This document shows positions 38,014 through 39,484 of a stretch of DNA of 64,000 nt, in pieces. The notes under the pieces were generated by a model. It was not told the origin of the DNA. It worked only from the letters and a program-made list of their open reading frames with translations, and made no database searches. The first letter of the stretch is position 1, and every line of letters starts with the position of its first letter. The position numbers and the translations under genes are program-made. This stretch comes from Ferruginibacter sp. (lineage in GTDB: Bacteria > Bacteroidota > Bacteroidia > Chitinophagales > Chitinophagaceae): positions 1 to 64,000 of the forward strand of contig JAQBNH010000007.1 in NCBI GenBank assembly GCA_028288705.1, written 5' to 3'.

Positions 38014-38907
38014 TTACCCTTGCTCTTCTTCATCCTTCTTTTCTTCTTCGATCGTTTCATCCATATCATCCTGCAGGTCTTCCACCGCGTCTTCCATCTC
38101 CAGTTCTTCTGCTACAGAATGGTCTGAATTATTTTCTTCATCCAAATCAGTAATGGCTTCATTATTTTCGGCTTCGTTATTTTCTTCGATATTTTCTTCT
38201 TCGCCGATCGCTACTGCCGCAATGGTTAATTCTTCTTCGTTGCTATCCGCATCTTCAGCTGTTTCCGGAACGATGATCTCGCCTTCTTCAGCAGCCAGGC
38301 GGTTCACCTCATCATTTTCCGCGATCATGTCGGTCACGTTGGACGCCTTTAAATATTCATCCATCAGCACTTCACTGATCTTTGGTAATTCATCCGCACT
38401 GTTGATGCCGAAATAATCCATGAACGATTTTGACGTTCCGTAGATCAGTGGTTTGCCCACGGCATCTTCGTTCCGGCCCGAAATGATCACGAGATCTTTC
38501 TCCAGTAATTTCTGCACGGCATAATCACAGTTCACACCGCGAATCGATTCGATCTCGCTTTTGGTAATCGGTTGCTTATAGGCAATGATCGCCAGCGTTT
38601 CGAGTGAAGCCGTAGATAAACGTTTGATGAATTTATCGCCATTGATCAGCGCGACTGTTTTATGGTAAGCCGGTTTTGTAAGAAACTGCCAGCCCCCGCC
38701 ACTTTGTTTTAATTCAAAAGCATAAAATTCTGCGGCATATTTCTCCTGGATCCCGTCAATCGCCGCCGTTACCTGTTCCTGGCTCGCGCGGTCTTCGATA
38801 AAGCCCAATGCATTATTCACCAGTTCCGTGACCTCGGGAGAAGTAAGCGGCTTATCGCTGGCGAAGATCAATGCTTCTATGTGGGGAATGATTTGAGAGA
38901 TTTCCAT
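38014..38907 (-). CDS. scpB: Segregation and condensation protein ScpB
   Basis: 297 residues. The first ~190 form the ScpB winged-helix pair (HIEALIFASDKPLTSPEV, SLETLAIIAYKQPITKSEIESIRGVN, LLEKDLVIISGRNEDAVGKPLIYGTSKSFMDYFGI). The last 100 are an acidic, Glu/Asn-rich tail with repeated ENNEAENNEA-like units, probably disordered. Acts with ScpA and SMC in chromosome condensation; neither is present here. Standard ScpB is nearer 200 residues; the acidic tail is a common Bacteroidetes extension. Confidence 0.93.
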   Translation of the reverse strand: MEISQIIPHIEALIFASDKPLTSPEVTELVNNALGFIEDRASQEQVTAAIDGIQEKYAAEFYAFELKQSGGGWQFLTKPAYHKTVALINGDKFIKRLSTASLETLAIIAYKQPITKSEIESIRGVNCDYAVQKLLEKDLVIISGRNEDAVGKPLIYGTSKSFMDYFGINSADELPKISEVLMDEYLKASNVTDMIAENDEVNRLAAEEGEIIVPETAEDADSNEEELTIAAVAIGEEENIEENNEAENNEAITDLDEENNSDHSVAEELEMEDAVEDLQDDMDETIEEEKKDEEEQG

Positions 38908-38935
38908 TAATAAATTATAATTGAAGGCTTTTTTT

Positions 38936-38976
38936 AGTCAATTAGTCATTGGTCACTGGTCATTGGGACCGATTGA
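38936..38976. repeat. Left inverted-repeat array of the four-helix-bundle insert
   Basis: Reads AGTCAATTAGTCATTGGTCA and continues with further GTCATTG-type units to about 38968, ending in a separate ATTGACTT. The unit is 7-9 bp and repeated about four times. It mirrors the right-hand array at 39409-39452. Confidence 0.7.
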
Positions 38977-39315
38977 CTTTATGTAGCAGTTTATCAGTTT
39001 GAAAAATTTGGTAAACAATATTCGTAATTGGTTTTCCTGATCTGGACTTACCAGACTTCGCTCCTTAGCTTTCTTCAGGCAAGTAGCACATTCATATGCC
39101 GATCCCCTGCTATAATAATTAAAATTCCTGTTTTCCTTGTAAAAGAACCGGCCATATCCTTCTGCGATGTTCAACGCGATGGAGTCAGCAGATCGCAAAA
39201 ATTGTTTGCCCAACGTTTCCTTATGAAAGTGATTCCAGTCCTGGATAGTCGCAAAGACAATCCTCCCGATTTCCATTGCTACCTTATACACTTCAAAATC
39301 TTTTAAGGCGATCAT
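38953..39315 (-). CDS. Four-helix bundle protein (23S rRNA intervening-sequence family)
   Basis: 120 residues from the ATG at 39315; the track's start at 39327 is TTG. Conserved family features: KDFEVYKVAMEIGR, GKQFLRSADSIALNIAEGYGR, YYSRGSAYECATCLKKA. Related proteins were first seen in intervening sequences of 23S rRNA genes and resemble the Avd accessory protein of diversity-generating retroelements. The function of stand-alone copies is unknown. The gene is bracketed by inverted repeat arrays, and its stop lies within the left array. Confidence 0.88.
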   Translation of the reverse strand: MIALKDFEVYKVAMEIGRIVFATIQDWNHFHKETLGKQFLRSADSIALNIAEGYGRFFYKENRNFNYYSRGSAYECATCLKKAKERSLVSPDQENQLRILFTKFFKLINCYIKSIGPNDQ

Positions 39316-39408
39316 GTCACAAAGCAAGCATAACCGCTGCTTATGAATTTGAGTTTCCTCCCGCTTTTAACCGTCTTTAACCCCATTCAACTATGTAATC
39401 CGTAGAGA

Positions 39409-39452
39409 TTGACCAATGACTTACTGACCAATGACCTATTGACTTATTGACT
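39409..39452. repeat. Right inverted-repeat array of the four-helix-bundle insert
   Basis: Reads TTGACCAATGACTTACTGAC and continues CAATGACCTATTGACTTATTGACT. The reverse complement (AGTCAATAAGTCAATAGG...) aligns with the left array with few differences. Confidence 0.7.
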
Positions 39453-39484
39453 CCACATACACTTCGTCCTGAAAACCTTTTCGC

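Follow-up and report, generated by a model that had tools for sequence, protein, structure and literature searches.

The interval between scpB and atpG in the stretch of DNA analysed here (64,000 nucleotides, hereafter the window) contains one small four-helix-bundle gene enclosed by inverted arrays of short repeats, and this gene of the 23S-intervening-sequence family (IVP) and its arrays form a real, non-random unit. Both neighbours lie on the minus strand, scpB at 38014-38907 and atpG from 39485 onward. With a probability of roughly 55%, we read the locus as an IVS-type unit that lies outside rRNA and whose probably pentameric IVP recognises its own array.

The initial annotation had placed a gene of this family between scpB and atpG, flanked by opposed GTCATTG-type arrays of about four units per side, with the gene's stop inside the left array. 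The layout was borne out; the unit count stood for the left array, and the right array holds about six. On the plus strand, the left array reads AGTCAATTAGTCATTGGTCACTGGTCATTGG (38936-38966), the complement of which is the downstream array in gene sense, and the right array reads TGACCAATGACTTACTGACCAATGACCTATTGACTTATTGACT (39410-39452), so that the upstream array in gene sense is AGTCAATAAGTCAATAGGTCATTGGTCAGTAAGTCATTGGTCAATC. The best inverted pair, 38936-38955 with 39425-39444, spans 20 nt at 90% complementarity. Comparison of one arm with the reverse complement of the other gave a local score of 19.7, higher than at any of 2939 random window sites that share its geometry (mean 8.9, maximum 15.5). 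Allowing at most one mismatch, TGACCAATGAC occurs four times in the 64 kb, each time at the IVP locus, and 2 of 100 shuffles reach four. In the predicted fold of the window transcript the arrays are paired and the ORF lies in the loop (z -2.4).

Table 1. Features of the scpB-atpG interval, in window positions.
Feature	Position	Strand	Description
Occupied scpB-atpG intergenic space	38908..39484		About 580 bp; 12-138 bp without the gene in 29 relatives
Array downstream of IVP gene (left)	38936..38966	+	About 4 units, orientation opposite to upstream array; holds the stop codon
IVP gene	38953..39315	-	PF05635 / TIGR02436 four helix bundle protein, 120 aa counted from ATG
Inner sequence GACCGATTGACTT	38967..38979	+	Repetition of the outer terminus (matched at 39433-39445), overlapping the gene's 3' end
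Array upstream of IVP gene (right)	39407..39452	-	About 6 GTCAWTR units in gene sense

Translation likely starts at the ATG at 39313-39315, a start supported by relatives, and ends at the TGA at 38953-38955, within the downstream array as claimed. The family assignment was confirmed by the PF05635 and TIGR02436 profiles, whose curated cut-offs the protein exceeds (81.2 bits versus 33.8 and 78.1 versus 24, respectively). The AlphaFold2 monomer model is a confident four-helix bundle (pLDDT 93.8) that matches PDB entries 2gsc, the solved IVP from X. campestris (TM-score 0.83-0.87), and 2rld, each with five chains. It also matches Avd of diversity-generating retroelements, in free form (4dwl) as well as within ribonucleoprotein particles (8ub7). 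Phage records contained no relative of the protein at the threshold used. The structure matches of the model included no nuclease or toxin fold, and PADLOC returned no match. The latter two results speak against a toxin-antitoxin-like or addiction module whose protein is kept in check by repeat array RNA. Such a module would agree with tandem repeats immediately upstream of a small gene, with persistence at loci and with presence on plasmids; nevertheless, the arrays stand on both sides and are inverted, and the gene is absent from this site in 29 of 29 genus relatives, where arms of various units often remain. We regard this explanation as very improbable.

The same layout was found at most IVP genes examined. 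Seventy-seven named loci, picked as the best matches to one IVP subfamily, came mostly from Bacteroidota and also from Calditrichota, Planctomycetota, Verrucomicrobiota, desulfobacterial and other proteobacterial lineages, Ignavibacteriota/Chlorobiota and Kapaibacterium. Their median arm pairing was 20.8, versus 8.8 when the sites were displaced within each locus, and the arms exceeded the 99% control in 80% of them; about 20% had no clear arms. In a separate set from the same order, 79% of 28 IVP loci exceeded the 99% control, compared with none of 27 control flanks of atpG. IVP genes on cyanobacterial plasmids (n = 15) gave a median arm score of 23.0 versus 8.6, with clear arrays in 14 of the 15 and heptamers that include GGGAGTA, GGGAACA, GTCAGGA, GGTGTAG and AGCTTTT. 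IVP genes are present on conjugative plasmids as well; the query of one plasmid search was a composed IVP-like consensus, not a natural sequence. Among 130 loci, flanks autocorrelated best at a lag of 7 in 68, 8 in 32 and 10-11 in 15, so that periods of 7 or 8 are usual. The median number of recognisable cores per arm was four. This recurring layout, with a gene-private motif across phyla, suggests that a class of protein-plus-repeat genetic unit has been overlooked.

Several side observations concern the composition and setting of such arrays. Small GC-rich hairpins lie between the GTCATT cores at two loci (L171, L181), so the spacing of cores is not fixed. On cyanobacterial plasmids, IVP genes with their arrays sit within gene clusters (L363, L364, L366, L369, L375): one separates the two ribonucleotide reductase genes, two lie between cas6 and cas4, one is flanked by cas10 and cmr3, and one follows a TraM-domain gene. 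Genes for GxxExxY proteins (PDDEXK_3) are often caged too, by ACCACAAAGGACACAAGG-like inverted arrays: 54% lie above the 99% control in a set of 28 loci drawn from PF13366 loci of relatives (L128-L157) that includes the source genome's own copy (C11:85391-85735).

Each IVP paralogue of a genome tends to have a repeat unit private to it. Within one genome, arms of the same locus scored 20.7 on average, versus 10.3 for arms of different IVP genes (38 loci, p 5e-19). A genome search for further four-helix-bundle genes, as the initial annotation had proposed, found a single other IVP gene (C11:58796-59068), likewise caged, with inverted arrays of another unit, GTAATTG/GGAATTG. Similarity of arms between loci grows with IVP protein identity (Mantel rho 0.44, 0/499), a statistic inflated by shared ancestry, so recurrence across phyla and the contrast within genomes carry more weight. 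In the subfamily to which the window's gene belongs, the GTCAWT core recurs at Calditrichota, Verrucomicrobiota, Chlorobiota/Ignavibacteriota, desulfobacterial and other proteobacterial loci. The cores also have a polarity: those upstream of the gene are mostly in sense (168, with 37 antisense), those downstream mostly antisense (179, with 12 sense), and upstream flanks are G-rich (skew +0.26), downstream flanks C-rich (-0.22).

Comparison of orthologues pointed to constraint on the arrays. Identity among Pedobacter orthologues was 0.91/0.90 for the arrays, 0.83 for the gene and 0.66/0.44 for the gene-array spacers; among Mucilaginibacter orthologues it was 0.82/0.85, 0.76 and 0.32/0.21, respectively, array identity being possibly inflated in both cases by the alignment of repetitive sequence. 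Arrays more conserved than the coding sequence, between poorly conserved spacers, indicate function, and the conserved, in-place unit of these two genera looks like one whose function has been kept, as judged from sequence comparison. Arms of the same locus beat arms taken across orthologues in 15 of 20 groups (p 0.002), but the corresponding same-arm comparison was confounded by coding flanks, so we do not claim concerted evolution of the two arms. We consider it quite improbable that the arrays simply form common hairpins between genes, built from heptamers and acting as terminators or processing sites, with IVP genes in some of the loops by chance. The polarity that follows transcription would suit such hairpins, as would the gene-less inverted arrays of many units at the scpB-atpG junction of many relatives, but the unit tracks the IVP lineage and differs between paralogues, the layout holds across phyla and is lacking at atpG flanks, and IVP loci have retained the arrays but not the spacers.

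In the explanation that we favour, the locus consists of one small four-helix-bundle gene caged by opposed arrays of its own unit, GTCATTR. The IVP would be a pentamer binding its cognate array with about one subunit per unit. In TRAP, each subunit of a ring reads one of a series of repeated motifs; given the median of four cores per arm, a ring reading repeats in this manner would be a plausible mechanism for IVP. In a TRAP-like arrangement, the putative target would most likely be the transcript, either a single-stranded G-rich 5' array or the array-array stem, and binding would control or protect the IVP mRNA. We infer that the protein recognises the array, that it acts on RNA and that it could act in trans on gene-less hairpins of its unit elsewhere. 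The unit would mostly be inherited in place, sometimes lost with a hairpin left behind, and occasionally found at a new site.

The history of the scpB-atpG site bears on the last of these proposals and on the initial suggestion of a minimal mobile or replicative element. In all 29 genus relatives scpB adjoins atpG with no IVP gene in the shortened gap (Table 1), and many of these junctions carry gene-less inverted arrays of various units. Two more distant, outgroup genomes (L164 and L165, with atpG 74% and 72% identical to that of the window) have an IVP gene at the same junction, with GTCATTR-type arms, and a simple recent insertion at scpB-atpG was rejected on that ground. The closest relatives of the window's IVP (L162, L163) occupy unrelated loci, yet are nested in the tree among the scpB-atpG copies, which indicates that the unit relocated or was inserted repeatedly; in an ORF reading, their neighbours are a KUP-type transporter and an alpha/beta-hydrolase gene for L162, and an SDR gene and a response regulator for L163. 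The scpB-atpG junction of the L162 genome (L242) holds a gene-less GTCATTR hairpin (fold z -7.35). Thus, the junctions without the gene, for which the initial annotation had proposed a search, exist in the genus, but L164 and L165, together with this hairpin, suggest that the gene was lost from them and not that they predate an insertion. Gene loss that leaves hairpins appears likelier than fresh insertion as an account of the junction, although the closest relatives of the gene sit elsewhere. In the comparison for target duplications at defined ends, the spacers of relatives proved too diverged to align. The simplest history would be that the site was occupied long ago, that many lineages lost the gene but kept hairpins, and that the unit relocated or was gained independently at least once. 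Between species, its position is also stable in Pedobacter, Mucilaginibacter, Dyadobacter, Prolixibacteraceae and Scalindua.

Part of the mobile-element reading survives these comparisons: gene and arrays act as one unit, and the positions of L162 and L163 are elsewhere. What fails is a freshly inserted element, whereas mobility at some rate is supported. As an explanation of the whole locus, in which the arrays are the ends and a transposase or recombinase supplied in trans moves the unit and its gene-less derivatives, it is partly compatible with the IVS-type reading and would accommodate the displaced L162 and L163, the dispersed hairpins of genome G103, the occurrence of IVP genes on conjugative plasmids and a unit in which, as initially noted, there is no transposase (no PF01797 Y1 gene lies within it). 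We nonetheless think it unlikely, because position is kept in distant genomes and across genera, the arrays are conserved in place, and 93 genus genomes contain no near-identical dispersed copies (best 50% identity). The candidate helpers also argue against it. A PF00078 reverse transcriptase match is lacking in the source genome and in 45 of 60 relatives, and reverse transcriptase was rejected as a helper for that reason. Y1 transposases occur in 5 of 7 genomes checked; among eight Y1 loci, five were surrounded by other GC-rich repeats and none had GTCATTR arms, and RAYT was rejected in turn because the repeats differ. Neither candidate thus supplied the proposed helper in trans.

Gene-less arrays of the unit are found in several genomes. 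In the source genome, a few intergenic regions (L257, L261, L263) have clustered gene-less arrays of GTCATTG, GGAATTG and GTTGATTG, the first two being the units of that genome's two IVP genes; solo arrays were counted on 464 kb, chosen partly for known arrays. Several dispersed gene-less GTCATTR hairpins lie between genes in G103 (loci L306-L313, from G103 and G085), and the IVP genes examined in G103 have no GTCATTR arms, which makes its hairpins orphans. Solo hairpins match the IVP units of their own genome significantly in a few genomes (G153, G035, G011, G004, G009), and such matching was rejected as a general rule since it holds only in some. Genus-wide counts of GTCATTR and GGTTAATT gave no simple link to the presence of a cognate IVP. 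A control pattern, RTTACTGRTTACTG, had 49 matches in G077 versus 0-2 in other genomes and represents another expanded heptamer family. The orphan hairpins of G103, the partial matching of solo hairpins and the roughly one-fifth of loci with unclear arms count against recognition of the array by IVP as the best explanation.

Very many genomes have IVP genes annotated without a function, and heptamer arrays of several phyla lack a known reader. If each gene is caged in its cognate array, the ligand of an orphan protein could be read from its flanks and its function directly tested, 23S rRNA intervening sequences would be a single instance of a more general intergenic unit, and a large number of naturally orthogonal protein-repeat pairs would become available. 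It is possible, at odds somewhat short of even, that IVP proteins are phylum-spanning, sequence-specific repeat readers, each with a private heptamer or octamer array around its own gene, and the missing partners of the cyanobacterial, Xanthomonas, Geobacter and Beggiatoaceae arrays.

The caging rule may link heptamer repeats that were published separately (Coxiella IVS, Geobacter, Xanthomonas/Nostoc). As described in excerpts of the respective papers, opposite-strand octamer/heptamer array pairs of Geobacter metallireducens were ascribed to unidentified global regulators (PMC2700814); they resemble the present arrays in that each site has three to five units in tandem and most sites form inverted pairs at variable distance, and differ in their units (GTTGCTYN, MTYCTGA), with no gene link found in those excerpts. 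The Xanthomonas GGGAATC and Nostoc GGGGA(C/T)T heptamers, studied as G-quadruplex formers of unknown function, likewise form arrays mostly of four units, in Xanthomonas often as inverted pairs, and the excerpts contain no mention of IVP or S23 (PMC4692102). Beggiatoaceae and cyanobacteria have TAACTGA arrays (PMC4679880). No rule tying such arrays to IVP genes was found in the excerpts of these open-access papers or of that on Coxiella. REP/REPIN sequences with RAYT (Y1) are likewise palindromic repeats scattered between genes and associated with a protein, but the window's partner is a four-helix bundle, and local Y1 genes have GC-rich repeats or none of the GTCATTR kind. Avd of diversity-generating retroelements shares the fold, whereas the source genome has no reverse transcriptase and no template or variable repeats were seen. 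The 23S rRNA intervening sequences of Leptospira and Coxiella have a PF05635 ORF within terminal inverted repeats; in Coxiella, GACAGAT tandem heptamers lie upstream of the S23p ORF and the termini form a 28-bp inverted-repeat stem (PMC4990558, in excerpt). The terminal inverted repeats of the window's unit can likewise pair as a stem that encloses its ORF, but the unit sits between the protein genes scpB and atpG rather than in rRNA, with no Rfam match in L002, and each intergenic unit has its own repeat.
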